Shown here piece by piece: positions 5,708 through 15,061 of a stretch of DNA of 64,000 nt (the first letter of the stretch is position 1; each line of letters opens with the position of its first letter). The notes under the pieces were generated by a model. It ran no database searches, was not told where the DNA came from, and saw only the letters and a program-made list of their open reading frames with translations. Position numbers and translations under genes: made by a program. Where the stretch lies: assembly GCA_026692905.1 (NCBI GenBank), contig JAPLNL010000038.1, forward strand, positions 1 to 64,000. The letters are read 5' to 3'. The DNA comes from Planctomycetota bacterium. Its GTDB lineage: Bacteria > Planctomycetota > Planctomycetia > Pirellulales > Pirellulaceae.

Positions 5708-6820
5708 CTAAACGCGAACTGAAATTGGTGTGCTCCCAGCCCTGCTTGATTGTGTTTGCAGCAAAATTTCATCGGCCATTTTCGGAAGCGGCAAAATTTT
5801 ATGCGCTAGGCCAGCATTGGCAACAGTTCCTGGCATTCCCCATACCACGGAAGTCTCTTCGTCCTGAACGATGACGCGTCCACCTGCCTGGCGAATGGCA
5901 TCGCAGCCCCGCTGGCCATCTTGCCCCATTCCCGTCAACACCACCGCAAGAACGTTGGCTCCAAATAGTCCTGAAGCTGAGCGAAAGAGGACATCCACCG
6001 CAGGTCGACAAGAGTTCTCTGGCTGCTCTTGGTTGAGGACGACTTTGAGCTGCGGCCCCTGACGGCGTAGTGTCATGTGAAAATTGCCCGGAGCAAGCCA
6101 CACCCCGCCTGCTACCAATAGCTCTCCGTCGACGGCTTCATGAACATGTAATTTGCAAAGCTGGTTCAAGCGGTCTGCGAGATGCTTCGTGAAGACCGGT
6201 GGCATATGTTGCACAATCAAAATCGGAACGGGAAAGTTCTCGGGGAGCTTCGGCAGCATTGCTGTTAACGCATTCGGGCCGCCAGTCGACACTCCAATCA
6301 CAACGATTTCGATACGACTGGGTTTGACAGAGACAAGTGGCTTGGCTTGCGTTGCGGGTCGATTGCTTTGCCCCCACACTTCGGAACGAGCAATTGGACT
6401 GGACTTGCTATTCCAATTGCAAAACTGCTTGATCTTTGGCACCAGTTCATTGACAACCGTTTCGATCGCAGCTGTTACGCTCCCGACGTTGGATGGTTTC
6501 GTCGCAAAATCGTTGGCTCCTTTGCTCAGAGCTTCCATCGTGGCTTCGGCGCCGCTTTGGGTCAAAGTGCTGAACATGATGACGGGTAGCTTCGGGTAAA
6601 GCTTGCGAATCTCCACTAGCGTAGTCAACCCGTCCATCTCGGGCATTTCCATATCCAACGTAATGATGTCCGGTGCAACCTGCGGAATTTTCGCAAGCGC
6701 AATCTTACCGTTTGCGGCTACACCCGCGATCTCAATGGCTGGATCCGAGGTCAACGCATTGGTCAACAATCGGCGTATGACCGTAGAGTCGTCGACAATG
6801 AGAACCCGAATTTTACGCAT
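5708..6820 (-). CDS. cheB: CheB chemotaxis response regulator, protein-glutamate methylesterase
   Basis: CheB removes methyl groups from (and deamidates) MCP glutamates to reset receptor sensitivity. Residues 1-125 are a receiver domain with phospho-acceptor Asp56 (TLDMEMPEMDG). Residues 170-360 are the methylesterase with an intact catalytic triad, Ser178 (GVSTGGP), His205 (VQHMPP) and Asp301 (GMGQDGQRG). The linker is Pro/Ser-rich. The length (370 aa) is normal. It is the last gene of the minus-strand chemotaxis cluster, 8 bases after cheY, with GGAG about a dozen bases before the ATG. Confidence 0.95.
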   Translation of the reverse strand: MRKIRVLIVDDSTVIRRLLTNALTSDPAIEIAGVAANGKIALAKIPQVAPDIITLDMEMPEMDGLTTLVEIRKLYPKLPVIMFSTLTQSGAEATMEALSKGANDFATKPSNVGSVTAAIETVVNELVPKIKQFCNWNSKSSPIARSEVWGQSNRPATQAKPLVSVKPSRIEIVVIGVSTGGPNALTAMLPKLPENFPVPILIVQHMPPVFTKHLADRLNQLCKLHVHEAVDGELLVAGGVWLAPGNFHMTLRRQGPQLKVVLNQEQPENSCRPAVDVLFRSASGLFGANVLAVVLTGMGQDGQRGCDAIRQAGGRVIVQDEETSVVWGMPGTVANAGLAHKILPLPKMADEILLQTQSSRAGSTPISVRV

Positions 6821-6828
6821 TGCGCGTA

Positions 6829-7197
6829 TTAAACTCCGATTCCAAGCAGTTGCAATTTTTCGATGATCATGCTCTTGTCGAATGGCTTCATGACGTATTC
6901 GTTCACCCCAGCCATAAAGGCTTGCCCAATGTTCTCCATTTCCGTTTCGGTGGTAACCATCATCATGGGCATATCGCGGTACTCCGGATGCTTGCGCACA
7001 GCCCGAATGAACTCGAGGCCATTCATCTCTGGCATGTTCCAGTCAACCAGTGCAATGTCCATTACGCCATGTGTATCAAGTTGAGCAAGGCCTTGGAGAC
7101 CATCGCCGGCCTCAAAGGTTTCGTAGTCCATCTCTCGCATCATGTTGCATATGACTCGGCGAATGGATCGAGAATCGTCAATGACTAGAGCTCGCAT
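6829..7197 (-). CDS. cheY: CheY-like response regulator
   Basis: Single-domain receiver (122 aa) with the acidic pocket at Asp7/Asp8, phospho-acceptor Asp52 (LVDWNMPEMNG), Thr82/Thr83 and Lys104 (VMKPF). It should carry the phosphoryl signal from CheA to a motility motor or another output. A strong AAGGAG precedes the start. It is a paralogue of the receiver at 8226-8597: both begin MRALVIDD and share many positions, so one may act as output and the other as phosphate sink. Which is which cannot be read. Confidence 0.9.
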   Translation of the reverse strand: MRALVIDDSRSIRRVICNMMREMDYETFEAGDGLQGLAQLDTHGVMDIALVDWNMPEMNGLEFIRAVRKHPEYRDMPMMMVTTETEMENIGQAFMAGVNEYVMKPFDKSMIIEKLQLLGIGV

Positions 7198-7298
7198 AGG
7201 ATTTTCTCCTTGTTTTGGGAGTGAGGGTGCGTGTTACAGGTCCGGAATCAGGAGCGTTTCAAGCTGATGTGTGTTCGTAAGCGATAGGGTTTTGAATA

Positions 7299-8138
7299 TC
7301 ATGCAACGGGACGGTAACAAACTGCGGTGCCAATTTGCTCCCGTTCAAAGCGAACATTGAGATTCATGGTCGTCTCAGAGCCGCCGAGGAAAAGGTAACT
7401 ATCCTTATGCATTACGGCATGAACCTTTTTGAGAATTTCGGTTTTTGTCTCGGGTGAAAAATAGATAAGTACGTTTCGAAGAAAAACGATATCCATCTTC
7501 GTAAGCAAATTCGGAAAAGGTTCGACCAAGTTTAGCTCACGAAACTCAATCATCTTGCGAATATCTTCTCGAATGGTCCATTGGCCTCCCTCCTTGGTAA
7601 AGTACTTCAAAAGATAATTCATCGGCAACCCGCGATTGATTTCCGTTTGATTGAACACACCTAACCGAGCTTTGTCCAATATGCGATTGGAAAGATCGCT
7701 GCTAATGAGGCGGATCTTCCAGTTCTTGAGCATCGGAAAGTGTTCCGCTAGAACCATCGCAATGGTATACGGCTCTTGACCGCTTGAACACGCGTTGGAC
7801 CAAATCGTAATCGATTTCTCCTTGGCCCGTCTCTGAATCAGACCGGGCAAGATTTTGTCCTTGAGGGCAGTGAAAGGATGGATGTCACGAAAGAAACTGG
7901 TTTCATTCGTTGTCATGGCCTCCACCACTCGCTGGTTTAGATTTTGCGACCCAGGTTTCTGTAATTCCGTTACCAGCTCAGAAATGTTGAGCAGCCCCAA
8001 TTCGCGAACCACTGGCGTTAGCCGTGACTCTATCAGATAGGCTTTCTCACTCTCCAAAACGATGGCCGACTTGCGGCGCACCAAGTTGCTGATGAACGTA
8101 AACGCTTGAGGATCTAAAGAAGAGGCAAGGGTACTCAT
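7299..8138 (-). CDS. cheR: CheR MCP glutamate methyltransferase
   Basis: CheR uses S-adenosylmethionine to methylate MCP glutamates. An all-helical N-domain (about 1-80) is followed by TTNETSFFRD, the conserved loop before the SAM fold, and NACSSGQEPYTIAM, the SAM-binding motif. FLRNVLIYF fits the family's motif near the active site. Length (279 aa) is normal. The MCP of this cluster lacks a C-terminal pentapeptide tether for CheR, so docking is presumably direct. The gene lies 87 bases after the second response regulator and 101 bases before cheY. Confidence 0.93.
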   Translation of the reverse strand: MSTLASSLDPQAFTFISNLVRRKSAIVLESEKAYLIESRLTPVVRELGLLNISELVTELQKPGSQNLNQRVVEAMTTNETSFFRDIHPFTALKDKILPGLIQRRAKEKSITIWSNACSSGQEPYTIAMVLAEHFPMLKNWKIRLISSDLSNRILDKARLGVFNQTEINRGLPMNYLLKYFTKEGGQWTIREDIRKMIEFRELNLVEPFPNLLTKMDIVFLRNVLIYFSPETKTEILKKVHAVMHKDSYLFLGGSETTMNLNVRFEREQIGTAVCYRPVA

Positions 8139-8225: not shown

Positions 8226-8597
8226 CTACAATGCAACAACACCAACCATTTTAAGTTTCTCTTGGATCATGATGGGCTCAAACGGCTTCATGATGTATTC
8301 CGAGACGCCCGCATCGAACGTCAACGCCAACTGCGACATTTCCAATTCGGTCGTAACCATAATGATCGGCAACCCGTCGAACATCGGTTTTTTCCGGACG
8401 AACTTGACGAACTCTAGACCATTCATGACTGGCATGATCCAGTCAACTAGAATGACGTCTGGAGGGCCGAATTCGGTTAGGCGATCCAGCCCTTCTTGGC
8501 CATCACTGGCCGTAATCACTTCGTAACCAAATCTGGTCAGGATCGACGAGATGATCAAAAGTATCTCTGGGTCGTCATCAATTACTAAAGCGCGCAT
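8226..8597 (-). CDS. CheY-like response regulator, second copy
   Basis: Stand-alone receiver (123 aa) with Asp7-Asp9 acidic residues, phospho-acceptor Asp52 (LVDWIMPVMNG), Thr82/Thr83 and Lys104 (IMKPF). It resembles the cheY at 6829-7197 closely enough to be a duplication within the cluster. It lies between the MCP and cheR and is preceded by AAGGAT. Having two CheY proteins with one CheA usually means a split between motor output and phosphate sink; that is inference. Confidence 0.88.
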   Translation of the reverse strand: MRALVIDDDPEILLIISSILTRFGYEVITASDGQEGLDRLTEFGPPDVILVDWIMPVMNGLEFVKFVRKKPMFDGLPIIMVTTELEMSQLALTFDAGVSEYIMKPFEPIMIQEKLKMVGVVAL

Positions 8598-8864: not shown

Positions 8865-10970
8865 TTAGAACTTAAATTCCAAGACGAGCTGCTGGAGTTC
8901 TGCAGCCATTCTGGCGATTTCGATCGCCGCTTGCTGCGTATTGTTCGCCCCCTCAGTCGTGCTCTGTGCAGCGGTCGCAACAGCAGTGATGTTTTCCGAG
9001 ATTTCATTGGAGCCCTTAGAAGCCTCGGAAACATTCCTACCCATTTCGTTTGCAGTAGCGGTCTGTTCCTCAACGGCACAGGCGATCGAAGTTGAGATCT
9101 CATTGATCTGATTGATGACATCGCTGATCTGGCGAATCGCTTCGACCGCCCCTCGGGTGTCGGTCTGGATCGTTTCAATCTTTTGACTGATGTCCTCAGT
9201 AGCCTTCGCGGTCTCTTTTGCCAACTCTTTGACTTCGTTCGCAACCACGGCAAAGCCTTTTCCTGCTTCGCCAGCTCGAGCCGCTTCGATCGTAGCATTG
9301 AGAGCCAAAAGGTTGGTTTGCTCAGCAATCGAAGTGATTACCTTAACAACTTTGCCGATCTCGCAGCTGCTTTCGCCCAGCTTAGCGATGGTTCCATTGG
9401 TCTTGTTCGCGACGTTGACCGCCTGCTGCGAAACCTTGGCAGATTCCGACGCGCTCTTGGCAATCTCCTTGATGGCAGCGTTCAATTCGTCTACGCCGCA
9501 AGCTACGGTTTGAACGTTCTTACTGACCTCTTCCGATGCTGCCGAAACCACATTTGCCTGGACCGAAGTTTCCTCAGCTGTAGCGCTCATCGTGGTGCTA
9601 ACCGAGGACAGCTCTTCCGATGCTCCGGCCAAAGCGGTTGCGTTGTCGGATACCGTTGCGAGTAGGTTCTTCAAGGCTTCGCGAGTGTTGGCCTGGGCTG
9701 TCACATCCGTCGCGTACTTGACCACTTTGAACGGCTTGCCATTGAGATCCAGGATTGGATTGTAGGATGCTTGAATCCATACGATCTTTCCCCCTCTGCC
9801 AACTCTTTTGTATTCGGCTGTTTGGTACTCGCCCCGATTGAGTTTGGCCCAGAACTCTTTGTATTCGGCCGAGTGGCGGAAAGATTCTTCGACAAACATG
9901 CCATGGTGACGCCCCTTGACTTCATCGAGAGAATATCCCATCGTCGACAAGAAGTTCTCATTGGCGGTTTGGATGGTACCGTCCATGCCGAACTCGATCG
10001 TTGCTTGCGACTTACTGATCGCTGCCAACTGGCCTTCGAAATCTGCCCCGCGAACTTTCTCGGCAGTCACGTCGGTCGCGATTTTTACGACCTTGAAGAC
10101 TCGTCCCATCTCGTCCTTGACAGGTGCATAAACGGCCTGGATCCAAACCTCCTTGCCCTCTTTGTTGATTCTTTTGAACACGCCCGACTGGCAATTGCCC
10201 GCGTTGAGTTCATCCCAAAACTGGCTGTAGGAATTGGAATTAGCGAAACTATTCTCCACAAAGGTTCGGTGATGCCTCCCAACGATCTCGTCGAGGCGAT
10301 AGCCAAGTGTCTTTAAAAAGTTGGCGTTCGCCTTGAGGACAGTCCCCTTGGTGTCAAATTCGATGTAAGCGAAGCTCACGTCGATGGCAGCGAGTATGCC
10401 GTTGGCGTTTTGGCGTTCGATTTCAGAGGCGGTAATATCGTATCGCACGCCGATGTATTTCTGAGGTTTTCCGTTGGGGCCCATCACAGGTGCGATTACG
10501 GCATCGACGTAGTACGGTGTGCCATCCTTGGCTCGGTTCTTGATGATGCCGCGAAACGGCTTGCCGCGACCAATCGTTGACCACATTTCTTTGAAGACCT
10601 CTTTCGGCATATCCGGGTGCCTAGTCGTATTATGGGGGAAACCGATCAACTCCTCTCGACGGTACTTGGATATCTCTATGAACTTTTCATTGATCGTCAG
10701 GATATCCCCTTTGAGGTCTGACTCCGAGACAATACTGGTCATGTTCATGATGTCGACACGAACATTGAGCTCATTGATCTGCGAGGCGAGCGCATCCTTT
10801 TCGGCGAGCAGCAAAGCTTTCTCGGCTGCAAGCAATGACATTTCTGTATTGAGCGTATCCACCTGCTCTTTGTAATGAGCAAGCCCTAAGGTGCTCGTCT
10901 TTTTGCTAGCAGGCTTGCTTGCCGTGGTTTTTTTGGCGGAAGGCTTTGTGGTTCGTGTGACGGTGGACAT
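8865..10970 (-). CDS. Soluble methyl-accepting chemotaxis protein with three PAS domains and a basic tail
   Basis: A 701-aa transducer with no membrane segment. Order: a Lys/Ala/Ser/Thr-rich basic N-terminus (about 1-28, e.g. [16 protein letters not shown]), a coiled coil (about 33-75), three PAS domains (about 75-185, 190-307, 310-430), then the MCP signalling domain (about 440-701) with the hairpin tip [23 protein letters not shown] 2 and 3 are close copies of each other (GRHHRTFVE against GRHHGMFVE, each ending KVVKxATDVTA). It has no HAMP domain and no CheR-binding pentapeptide; it ends LEFKF. It therefore senses a cytoplasmic cue, perhaps redox, oxygen or a small ligand. AGAGGA precedes the ATG. 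The basic tail looks like those of histone H1-like bacterial proteins, so nucleoid tethering is a possibility. Confidence 0.9.
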
Positions 10971-11045: not shown

Positions 11046-11501
11046 CTAATCGACGTTGGAAGTAACGTCGATCACTCTCTCAGTATCAAGGACAAGAAGT
11101 AAGCGATCTTTCATCTTGTAGGCACCTCGTATGAGCTGGCGTGTTGGTCCACGAAGTGTTTCTGGTGGCGGCTCAAAGTTCTCTTCGTCGCTCTCTTGCA
11201 CGTCGCCAATTTGGTCGACGAGCAAACTAACGGCGCCATCATCGCTTCGGACAACGACATTCATTGGCAATTGGCCTTCAGGACGATCGGGTAGCCCCAA
11301 TCGCCTTCGCAATTCGATGGCTGTGACGATTTGGCCTCGTAGGTTAATGAGCCCACAAACCGAATCCGGAGCCAAGGGGATATCCGTCATCTGCTGGTAC
11401 CGTATTACCTCTTGAACCGATTGGACGTCGATCCCGAACATCTGGTTCTCGAGGTAAAAGGTGCACAACTGACTTGCTGGCGATTGACTTGTCGTGGACA
11501 T
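11046..11501 (-). CDS. cheW: CheW coupling protein
   Basis: CheW links receptors to CheA in the signalling array. The fold is visible from CTFYLENQMFGIDVQSVQEV through VCGLINLRGQIVTAIELRRRLG (the conserved NLRG turn) to DSVSLL-like and VLDTERV elements. The start at 11501 (MSTTSQ) leaves a spacing of 11 bases after cheA and has AGGGA upstream; the longer frame to 11549 would overlap cheA. At 151 aa the length is typical. Confidence 0.92.
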   Translation of the reverse strand: MSTTSQSPASQLCTFYLENQMFGIDVQSVQEVIRYQQMTDIPLAPDSVCGLINLRGQIVTAIELRRRLGLPDRPEGQLPMNVVVRSDDGAVSLLVDQIGDVQESDEENFEPPPETLRGPTRQLIRGAYKMKDRLLLVLDTERVIDVTSNVD

Positions 11502-11512
11502 GATTTCGTTCC

Positions 11513-13744
11513 CTAAACGAGAGATGTAAGTTGGCTTAGTGAAGGGCAATCGATCATTCGAATGACTGCCGGTAAATCCACGAGGTCGGTCACGCGGTCG
11601 TGAATCACGACAGAACCTAAAAGTCCTTCGCGAGCTGACGGGTGATTGAGTTGCAAACTGGTCTCGACGATATCGATGATCTTGTCGATAACGAGTCCAA
11701 AGCTGCGTTCGTTTTCGTTGTAGACGACAACGTTCAACAAGTCATCTTCCGAGGTGTCATTCGATTCCAGCCCCAGGAAGCTTGCGAGCCGAATCAGCGG
11801 TAGAATCTTTCCGCGATACTGGACGACCTCTTGGTGGTCGGCATATTCAATAGCTTCTTTTGAAATCTTCTCCAATCGAGCTACCTGCGAGATCGGAAGT
11901 GCGAGGCGACGGCTGGTACCCGTACCGAGAATGATGAGCGTCTGAGGTTCTCCGTCGGCGTCCTTGGCTCGACCGTTCGGATCCACCAAGGCGCCATCGC
12001 GCATTTTGGAAATGACTTGTGAAGCATAAGCAAGACCGAGAACGTCCAAAATCAATGCGACTTTGCCATCCCCCATAATAGTCGTGCCGGAATACACCGC
12101 GACTCCCTTGAGCTGTTTGCTAAGTGGTTTGACCACAATCTCTTCGGTGTCGTTAATGCGATCCACGACCAGACCGAACTGGCGGTCATCCGCGCGAAGG
12201 ATGACAATGTTGATCACGTCCTGAGGAGTCTCGCTCGCGACATTGGTCTTTAGAACATTGCGAAGATAAACCAGTGGCAGCAATCGGCCTCGCAAACGGT
12301 AGACCGGTGCTCCCTGGATCCATTCGATGCTCTTTGTGGTTTGTTCGCCTTCGAGTCTAACCAATTCCAAGAGGTTGACTTGTGGGATCGCAAATCGATT
12401 GCCCGCACAGGACACGATCAATGCAGGAATAATCGCTAAAGTCAAAGGGATCTTGATCTTAACGGTCGTGCCGTGCCCCGGCCGCGTTTGCAAATCCACC
12501 GAGCCGCCGATCTTTTCGATGTTCGTTTTCACCACATCCATTCCGACACCACGGCCAGACACATTGGAAACCTTTTCCGCCGTAGAAAAACCGGGCAAGA
12601 AAATGAGTTGCGCAATCTCCTGCTCCTGCATTCGAGCGACTTGCTCTTGGCTTATGAGACCTTTTTCAATCGCCTTGGTTTTGATGCGTTCGAGATTGAG
12701 GCCAGCCCCGTCGTCCGATATATCGATAATCACTTGCCCCCCCTCGTGGAAGGCGCGGAGCGTGAGACAACCCTCTACCGGTTTGCCGGTGGAGCGGCGA
12801 ACCTCGGGCTTTTCGATGCCGTGGTCGACAGTGTTTCGAACGAGGTGGGTCAAAGGATCTTTGATGGCTTCGATGATGGTTTTGTCCAGTTCCGTGGCTT
12901 TCCCCTCCATTTCAATACGCACCTCCTTGCCGCAAATGGCGGCCAAGTCACGAACCAGTCGAGGAAACTTGCTCCAGACATTTCCGATCGGTTGCATTCG
13001 GGTTTTCATAACCCCCTCTTGCAACTCGGTCGTAATGAGGTTTAAGCGTTGCGTCGTTCTAAGGAGATCGGTGTTTCCGAGTTCGCCTGTGAATTGCATG
13101 ATTTGATTTCGAGCGAGCACAAGCTCACCGACTCGAGTCATAAGTGTGTCGAGAAGAGACACATCAACTCGAATGGTGCTATCAACTGCCGATACAATCG
13201 CCGCATCGTGAATTACCGAACTGATCGATTCGGTAGGCTTGCGTTGCGCCGCAGAGTCACAGACTCTTTCTGGCACGGTCTCCAAAGTTGCTTCCTCGAT
13301 TGACTCGTCGTCTGGGATTTCAACAATACCAGAGTCGGGACCAGAGTCGGGACCAGAGTCGGGATTGAGCAGCCGCTCAAGTGCAACAATATGTTCGGTC
13401 ACATCTTGTTCGTTCGATGTTTCGAGTGAATCTAGTAGTCCCTTAAGTCGATCGGTTGCTTTTAAGAGAGTGTTGACTACTAGATTGGTTGGTCGCATTT
13501 CGTTGTTGCGAAGCCGATTGAGCACCTCTTCGCCGCGATGAGCAAGGCTCTCTAGAACTTCAAATCCCAAGAAACCGGCAGCACCTTTGATGGAATGCAC
13601 GGCGCGAAAAACCTTGTTGACCAATGCAATATCGATCCCATCCTGCTGAGATTCGAGAGTCAAAAGTTGGCTTTCCACATCGGAAAGGTGTTCTTGCGAC
13701 TCAACGATAAAGTCTTTAATCAGCTCGTCGTCTTCGATTGTCAT
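11513..13744 (-). CDS. cheA: CheA chemotaxis histidine kinase with two CheW-like domains
   Basis: CheA autophosphorylates on its HPt domain and feeds CheY and CheB. Domains: HPt/P1 (1-105) with phospho-His50 (VHSIKGAAGFLG); a linker bearing the repeat DSGPDSGPDSG near 130-140; the P3 dimerisation helices (DTLMTRVGELVLARNQIMQF); the P4 ATPase with N box HLVRNTVDHGIE, G1 ISDDGAGLN and G2 GRGVGMDVV; then two CheW-like domains, about 440-590 and 595-740, where most CheA proteins have one. I see no P2 CheY-binding domain; the linker is too short. The 743-aa length fits the extra domain. It is the first gene of the cluster; about 470 bases separate it from the divergent CarH-like regulator. Confidence 0.94.
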   Translation of the reverse strand: MTIEDDELIKDFIVESQEHLSDVESQLLTLESQQDGIDIALVNKVFRAVHSIKGAAGFLGFEVLESLAHRGEEVLNRLRNNEMRPTNLVVNTLLKATDRLKGLLDSLETSNEQDVTEHIVALERLLNPDSGPDSGPDSGIVEIPDDESIEEATLETVPERVCDSAAQRKPTESISSVIHDAAIVSAVDSTIRVDVSLLDTLMTRVGELVLARNQIMQFTGELGNTDLLRTTQRLNLITTELQEGVMKTRMQPIGNVWSKFPRLVRDLAAICGKEVRIEMEGKATELDKTIIEAIKDPLTHLVRNTVDHGIEKPEVRRSTGKPVEGCLTLRAFHEGGQVIIDISDDGAGLNLERIKTKAIEKGLISQEQVARMQEQEIAQLIFLPGFSTAEKVSNVSGRGVGMDVVKTNIEKIGGSVDLQTRPGHGTTVKIKIPLTLAIIPALIVSCAGNRFAIPQVNLLELVRLEGEQTTKSIEWIQGAPVYRLRGRLLPLVYLRNVLKTNVASETPQDVINIVILRADDRQFGLVVDRINDTEEIVVKPLSKQLKGVAVYSGTTIMGDGKVALILDVLGLAYASQVISKMRDGALVDPNGRAKDADGEPQTLIILGTGTSRRLALPISQVARLEKISKEAIEYADHQEVVQYRGKILPLIRLASFLGLESNDTSEDDLLNVVVYNENERSFGLVIDKIIDIVETSLQLNHPSAREGLLGSVVIHDRVTDLVDLPAVIRMIDCPSLSQLTSLV
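13331..13366. repeat. Tandem GGACCAGAGTC repeat inside cheA
   Basis: A 12-base unit (CCAGAGTCGGGA on the plus strand) occurs about three times in frame, giving Asp-Ser-Gly-Pro repeats in the CheA linker between the phosphotransfer and kinase domains. It looks like slippage expansion of a flexible linker and could vary between strains. Confidence 0.7.
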
Positions 13745-14218
13745 TCAACTCGCCCCACGTTTGGTTATTCGGAGCTTGGTCCGATACGCACGATTCCATT
13801 AAGCAATCCAAACCGCCAAGATTGCCCAATCTATATGCATCGCATAACCTGACTGCACAAATGAAATTGGGAGCAAAAGAATTGCTCGGTGGGTTTGAAT
13901 GGACACGGGTGCGGTCTTGCGTGGAAAATGGTCACTTTGATTTAATCAGCCAAATGCGAAATCGTTCAAACTGATCAGAAGGAAATCCCCCGGCTTCGTA
14001 TCGCCTTTGACGATGCTACATGGCAACTACAGGTTTTCCTTAGTCTATTTGCGGCTTAGCCAAACTAAACCCGCTGTTTGCTACTCGTCAATCCGACCGA
14101 AAATGAAGGCGTGGTTAGTGCGTCGAGTGTCAACCATCGATCGCGACAATTGCCCCGCCCACAATTGCGAATGAAACAGGCAAACGATAGCGGGAAAGCT
14201 TTCAGGTGGAGCTAGTCA
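13745..14218. promoter_or_regulatory. Divergent intergenic region between cheA and the CarH-like gene
   Basis: These 474 bases separate two divergent genes and must hold both promoters. I see no convincing sigma-70 hexamer pair and no obvious palindromic operator of the CarH type. The only clear signal is AGGTGGAG 7 bases before the CarH-like ATG. Its role as a shared control region is inferred from gene orientation. Confidence 0.4.
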
Positions 14219-15061
14219 ATGAACCAAATGATCTCGGTTAAAGATGCGTCAAGTTATCTGGGCGTAAGCGCGTCAACCTTCAAAAGGCTCTGCGAAAGGT
14301 ATGCTATCCCGTTACATAGAACAACCGGGGGACATAGGCGAATCGATCGGGCAGATTTGGATCAAGCGTATCGATTCTTTTGGAATAGCTCGCGAAAAAA
14401 ATGCGTCTCGGTGGATGCCTCCGATCCCGATGGCATACGACAGATCGTCAAGCATTTGCTGGACCGCAATATCGACACGGTCATAGAGACAATTTGGGAA
14501 CGATTGGAAACGGAAGACCAGTTGTCACAGGTACTAGAAAACACACTCATACCAGCTCTATGGAACATCGGTGAACTCTGGCGAACACAAGAAATGGATG
14601 TTTATCAAGAACATATCTGCAGCAACACCGTTTGCACGGTCCTCGATCTTTTGCTGTGTCGATTACCCAAGGTCGAGTCGACGGCGAGCTTAGCGATTGG
14701 CGGAACGTTTGAATCGAACTTGGATTCAATTGCCTCTAAAGTTGCATGCTTGGTACTGCGGTCTATCGGGATGAGCTCCGTCGATCTCGGTTGCAATCTG
14801 CCAGCGACATCCATCGCCAAGGCTGCTTCGGACTTGCAACCCTCGATCGTGTGGATTTGCCATACTCACGTTGAGAACCCTGAAAGCATCGTTGAAAACC
14901 ATCGAATCCTTCGACAATCGCTCGCCAGTTCTGTACGGGTTATTATCGGCGGCGGGGGATTGTCACCTGCATTGAGGAGATCGCTGTATCATTGCACTTA
15001 CTTTGAATCGATGACCATGATGGTGGACGCGTTGAAGGCGGAACCGATCGAAGCCAGTTGA
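14219..15061 (+). CDS. CarH/LitR-like MerR regulator with a degenerate B12-binding domain
   Basis: Residues 4-55 are a MerR/excisionase-type winged helix (VKDASSYLGVSASTFKRLCE, then TTGGHRRID). Residues 70-150 are the helical bundle, and 155-275 the Rossmann-like cobalamin-binding fold (GCNLPATSI, VIIGGGGLS). CarH-type photoreceptors carry W-x9-EH, and here Trp121, Glu131 and His132 match it exactly. Numbering runs ten below Thermus CarH (W131, E141, H142). At the position of the lower axial ligand His177 this protein has Asn167 (ESN in place of ExH), and the light-state ligand His132 is Arg122. It probably does not bind adenosylcobalamin in the usual way; it may be light-independent, as proposed for B12-independent CarA, or bind something else. 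It is divergent from the chemotaxis cluster and may regulate it. Confidence 0.8.
   Translation: MNQMISVKDASSYLGVSASTFKRLCERYAIPLHRTTGGHRRIDRADLDQAYRFFWNSSRKKCVSVDASDPDGIRQIVKHLLDRNIDTVIETIWERLETEDQLSQVLENTLIPALWNIGELWRTQEMDVYQEHICSNTVCTVLDLLLCRLPKVESTASLAIGGTFESNLDSIASKVACLVLRSIGMSSVDLGCNLPATSIAKAASDLQPSIVWICHTHVENPESIVENHRILRQSLASSVRVIIGGGGLSPALRRSLYHCTYFESMTMMVDALKAEPIEAS

Follow-up and report, generated by a model that had tools for sequence, protein, structure and literature searches.

Does a CarH-like regulator that is encoded next to a chemotaxis cluster still act as a B12-dependent photoreceptor, and which genes does it control? In the window, i.e., the whole stretch of 64,000 nucleotides that was analysed, the regulator gene is a real open reading frame of 280 aa on the plus strand (14219-15061), as the earlier note had described it, with domain matches to HTH_17 (residues 5-49) and to the four-helix cap B12-binding_2 (74-145), followed by a Rossmann B12-binding-like domain (159-252) whose match to the B12-binding domain is weak and below its cut-off. 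The domain search and the predicted fold give the CarH/LitR-type order of winged-helix DNA-binding domain, four-helix cap and Rossmann B12-binding domain. The AlphaFold2 model (pLDDT 90.4) has TtCarH (E 2.3e-14) and CtMerR (TM by target 0.78-0.81) as its best PDB matches, and the CarH-like fold proposed previously thus holds at the level of prediction. The reading that we consider probable, though well short of certain, is that of a CarH/CtMerR-fold transcription factor without the lower-axial histidine, dedicated to the adjoining divergent che operon through a predicted repeat operator.

The cobalamin ligand positions required revision. Trp121, Glu131 and His132 (W121-x9-E131-H132, 14579-14614), the motif with which CarH/LitR photoreceptors touch the adenosyl group, were confirmed where the earlier note had placed them, whereas its assignment of Asn167 to the position of CarH His177 was not. 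Aligned with CtMerR, TtCarH and further corrinoid proteins, the regulator has Asp169 (codon 14723-14725) at the position of CarH His177 and CtMerR His204, and its Asn167 (codon 14717-14719) matches the D/E two residues ahead of the histidine (GDLH in CtMerR, GERH in TtCarH). The published fingerprint D/ExHx2G/Px41SxT/Vx22-27GG (PMC9304148) is in exact register in the regulator (N167-L-D169-S-I-A172, x41, C214-H-T216, x27, G244-G245), which together with the alignments rules out Asn167 as the lower-ligand residue; the histidine is indeed absent, but it is replaced by aspartate and not by asparagine. Arg122 had been read correctly at the position of CarH His132. It can be rejected as a disabling change, since the light-responsive AdoCbl protein CtMerR also carries Arg there, and Gln or Tyr occupies the position in other functional photoreceptors (PMC11796333). 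The loss of both cobalamin ligands was therefore an overstatement, and a single meaningful ligand is lost. Light-responsive CBDs are marked by four elements, GxxW, EH, GxxxP and GxxH (PMC11796333), of which the regulator lacks only GxxH (SxxD), and GG and most of the pocket residues are retained.

Homologues were sought in 60 relatives, across 392 genomes of the phylum and in a scan of contigs throughout GTDB, and residue counts and the tree were based on 128 usable relatives together with CtMerR and TtCarH. Ten proteins including the window regulator form one clade (SH-aLRT 99), the other members being G021, G002, G016, G023, G024, L084, L085, L087 of Aporhodopirellula rubra and L088 of R. 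sallentina; homologues in this clade are 35-91% identical, and 35-41% between lineages. Next to it in the tree stand three proteins on long branches, whose ligand position is His in two cases and Ala in the third; the support of 87 is not strong. Position 169 is D or E in all ten clade members. Residue 168 is His in three of them, in which a one-residue register shift is possible, and Leu in the window protein. Outside the clade, the main family, a much larger sister group, was sampled with 115 members from several phyla, in which the ligand position is Tyr in 106, within the motif GDPYxLP, and His in 4, Thr in 3, and Ser and Phe in 1 each. Trp121 and Glu131 are invariant in both the clade and the main family, and position 132 is often Arg or Lys (H in 6/10 and K/R in 4/10 clade members). 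These counts rule out the loss of the histidine as a special trait of the window protein; apart from scattered members, a whole family lacks the axial histidine. Scattered Tyr-type members with His at the ligand position (L131, L132, L144 and L158) suggest, from their sequences, reversals or retained B12 binders.

The residues that accompany Asp169 could point to another function of the domain. His215 and His217 of the H215-T216-H217 stretch (14861-14869), in the SxT region of the fold, are conserved in 9/10 and 10/10 clade members, and their positions are A/I and A/L in CtMerR and TtCarH. The acidic residue 169 and these two histidines are thus co-conserved in the clade, absent from the two known photoreceptors and located in loops lining the B12 pocket of relatives, as would be expected if the B12-fold domain sensed another small molecule or a metal via Asp169 and His215/His217. 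Co-conservation in ten related proteins is nevertheless a weak sign of a site, and His217 is also His in 50/115 members of the main family. We regard sensing of such a ligand, which is compatible with the dedicated che regulator that we prefer, as possible but rather unlikely.

We are more doubtful that corrinoid binding, in base-on or base-off form, persists in the regulator despite the missing axial histidine and that the protein senses B12 or light by an altered chemistry. Variants of MetH without the axial histidine can still bind cobalamin. The intact GxxW, EH and GxxxP elements (PMC11796333) and the preserved register of GG and SxT would fit such binding. The genome also encodes a PF01923 cobalamin adenosyltransferase, so a shortage of AdoCbl in the cell is no obvious reason for the change at Asp169. 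On the other hand, the acidic residue that turns GxxH into SxxD is invariant in the clade, His132 and Pro195 are lost in part of it, and CarH photochemistry as described depends on the His-on state. Judged from the sequence, the loss of the axial histidine makes CarH-type AdoCbl photochemistry unlikely in the regulator, although this loss alone does not prove that the protein is free of corrinoid. The comparison drawn earlier with a B12-free CarA is apt in that the CarH-type protein CarA of Myxococcus xanthus is reported to be B12-independent, but the residue patterns are reversed, as CarA has the His motif but no Trp (PMC9304148), and the regulator retains the Trp and has lost the His.

The proposed dedication of the regulator to chemotaxis genes, the second element of the preferred reading, is supported by the conservation of its neighbourhood. 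On the minus strand, the domain search identified cheA (11513-13744; Hpt, H-kinase_dim, HATPase_c and two CheW domains) and cheW (11046-11549), followed by genes for an MCP with several PAS domains (8865-10970), a single-domain response regulator (8226-8597), CheR (7299-8138), a second single-domain response regulator (6829-7197) and CheB (5708-6820). The divergent cheA and regulator genes are separated by 474 bp (13745-14218), and this distance spans 441-685 bp across the homologous loci and about 457-685 bp within the clade. The tie to the chemotaxis cluster suspected in the earlier note is well founded, for the regulator gene is divergent from cheA in 10/10 clade members despite the 35-41% identity between lineages, and likewise in the more distant L092. 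Within the genus, a cheA at least 63% identical to that of the window is confined to the six genomes whose regulator is intact and occurs in all of them, and the cheA genes of members without a linked regulator are more distant, with 58% identity and below. The incomplete assembly G003 carries part of the regulator gene at the end of a contig, and no cheA match in it reaches 63%. The CheA of the window has one Hpt domain, against two tandem Hpt-like segments in its relatives from G016, G023, G024 and L084. The fold is associated with chemotaxis a second time at L101:7923-8867, where a relative that keeps the axial histidine and has lost W and EH is encoded divergent from a PAS-MCP gene (6333-7694).

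In the intergenic region between the regulator gene and cheA, a de novo motif search returned tandem 9-bp units, in the window GATCAGTTT-GAACGATTT on the minus strand. We predict the operator to be the tandem 9-bp direct repeats AAATCGTTC-AAACTGATC at 13959-13976 (plus strand), consisting of one strong and one degenerate repeat. The motif of the clade scored above shuffled controls in an eight-locus set and in three five-locus sets (about one locus per lineage), and a matrix built from two lineages gave p 0.005-0.1 in held-out clade lineages, with the exception of L092. As the repeat was spotted by eye in intergenic alignments ahead of the formal tests, the weight lies on held-out loci and on a matrix derived from paralogues only. 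The source genome (G000) contains, besides the window protein, one main-family paralogue (C11:149848-150672). De novo search in the upstream regions of the genus paralogues yielded AAATCGTTCAAATCGTTCAA at much greater strength (138.8 vs 97.7 +/- 1.8), and the best repeat match in each of five whole genomes is found immediately ahead of the paralogue gene. Of 105 held-out loci, drawn from several phyla, 80 scored above all 20 of their shuffles. A matrix-free count of CGTTCA copies on the gene strand of 117 upstream regions gave 134 pairs at spacing 9 and 22 at spacing 18, with 0-2 at other spacings. The unit of the Tyr-type proteins and their relatives reads AAWCGTTCA in tandem direct orientation. 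The paralogue-only matrix ranked AAATCGTTCAAACTGATCAG at 13959, within the regulator-cheA intergenic region, first in the 64 kb of the window (17.1; next 11.8). At six clade or near-clade loci (L037, L084, L085, L087, L088 and L092) the same matrix reached only p 0.10-0.65, which indicates that the operator of the clade has drifted.

A CarH-type operator, which consists of tandem 11-bp units nnnnTnnACAn (PMC9304148), is ruled out by the repeat spacing of 9. A wider regulon of the window site in G000 was rejected, since further matches sit inside open reading frames at near control counts. Neither inverted nor simple repeats were returned for the intergenic region by the repeat search of the window, the 9-bp units being too degenerate for the method. 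The promoter scan gave one weak match at chance level, and nothing could be learned from aligning all intergenic regions together. A weaker, opposite-orientation repeat-like block, GAATTGCTCGGTGGGTTTG, is present at 13879-13897, and several clade loci have it too, about 130-155 bp ahead of cheA; it is possibly the second half of the predicted operator.

The 9-bp spacing invites comparison with BldC of Streptomyces, a protein with a MerR-like winged helix. In the DNA-binding domain of the regulator (residues 5-49, 14231-14365), Arg23 and His39 are near-invariant across the 128 relatives and are the presumed counterparts of BldC Arg30 and His46. These BldC residues contact DNA, and BldC binds head-to-tail to 9-bp direct repeats with the consensus AATTXXXX(C), an AT-rich core followed by a C-G pair (PMC5859096). 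Read on the opposite strand, the operator unit is GATTTGAAC, which fits this consensus. BldC differs from the regulator in having no effector domain in place of the B12-fold domain, and it was not among the matches of a PDB sequence search with the DNA-binding domain of the regulator. The closest solved sequence relative is CtMerR of Chloracidobacterium thermophilum (PDB 8JBS/8JBT; E 2.2e-17), which shares with the regulator the W, EH and GxxxP elements and the Arg at the position of CarH His132 but possesses the axial His204 and is light-responsive with AdoCbl. CarH of Thermus thermophilus (PDB 5C8D) has the same domain order, fold and Wx9EH, but it possesses the axial histidine and is linked to carotenogenesis and not to chemotaxis. 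Because the regulator lacks the axial histidine, has a predicted operator unit of 9 bp and not 11 bp, and scores 48.8 bits against the cut-off of 400 bits of the CarH equivalog NF052513, we do not class it among the CarH photoreceptors.

The predicted fold, the residue replacement, the conserved cheA linkage and the conserved operator-like repeats all support the reading of a dedicated che regulator. The regulator would oligomerise, with its BldC-like DNA-binding domains sitting head-to-tail on the repeats, and would control its own gene and cheA-cheW-mcp-RR-cheR-RR-cheB. Its B12-fold domain would now probably serve oligomerisation, perhaps with binding of a non-corrinoid ligand or a partner protein. 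From these data we infer binding at 13959-13976, control of cheA, the sign of regulation and the absence of B12, and the precedent of CarH favours repression over activation.

Counting against this explanation, besides the degenerate second repeat and the weak scores at the six clade or near-clade loci, is that the genome's own paralogue recognises a near-identical repeat and could be the binder. The repeat in front of cheA would then be the target of the unlinked paralogue, and the window protein would regulate something else. The paralogue's own upstream repeats, TGAACGAATTGAACGAAT, have the unit GAACGAWTT in common. Most members of the genus possess the paralogue, yet nine cheA clusters without a linked regulator, used as controls, mostly have no comparable site above background, with two moderate scores, and we consider this assignment improbable, slightly more so than corrinoid binding. 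That the regulator is a decaying, functionless pseudogene-like relic could be argued from the lost cofactor ligand and the fast divergence between lineages, but it is hardly credible given the purifying selection indicated by dN/dS of 0.13 against the closest homologue (91% identical), the intact open reading frames in all complete loci and the synteny preserved across lineages.

The proposed che regulator belongs to a larger group, and the main, Tyr-type family resembles it in domain order, DNA-binding domain, repeat operator and absence of the axial histidine, but differs in its Tyr at the ligand position, in an identity of only about 25-30% and in being partly divergent from a sigma factor gene and not from cheA. 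The Tyr-type family, with a conserved tandem 9-bp AAWCGTTCA upstream of its own gene (e.g., L040:5825-6730), occurs in Planctomycetota and several other phyla. This widespread family with its predicted repeat operator is probably a larger discovery than the window protein. Among 100 loci whose upstream sequence was long enough, 26 have the Tyr-type regulator gene divergent from that of a sigma-70 family factor, with the repeat operator between them (e.g., L040:4486-5511), an arrangement that recalls the LitR/LitS pairing in Streptomyces. We found no description of planctomycete CarH homologues, of CarH with chemotaxis operons, or of the Tyr-type family, its operator and its chemotaxis-linked offshoot in the open-access full-text literature. 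A broader proposal, which we put forward tentatively and at somewhat less than even confidence, is that a CarH-like family without the cobalt-binding histidine, mostly with Tyr in its place, uses a 9-bp operator, and that its acidic offshoot is a dedicated regulator of chemotaxis operons sensing a non-B12 ligand.

At this locus a B12 photoreceptor fold has been put to new use, apparently lacking its cobalt ligand, as a conserved partner of chemotaxis genes. The specific predicted DNA site makes testable both the signal sensed by these abundant uncharacterised planctomycete regulators and B12-free switching by the CarH fold. The predicted operator alone would allow the regulons of the Tyr-type and related regulators to be mapped.
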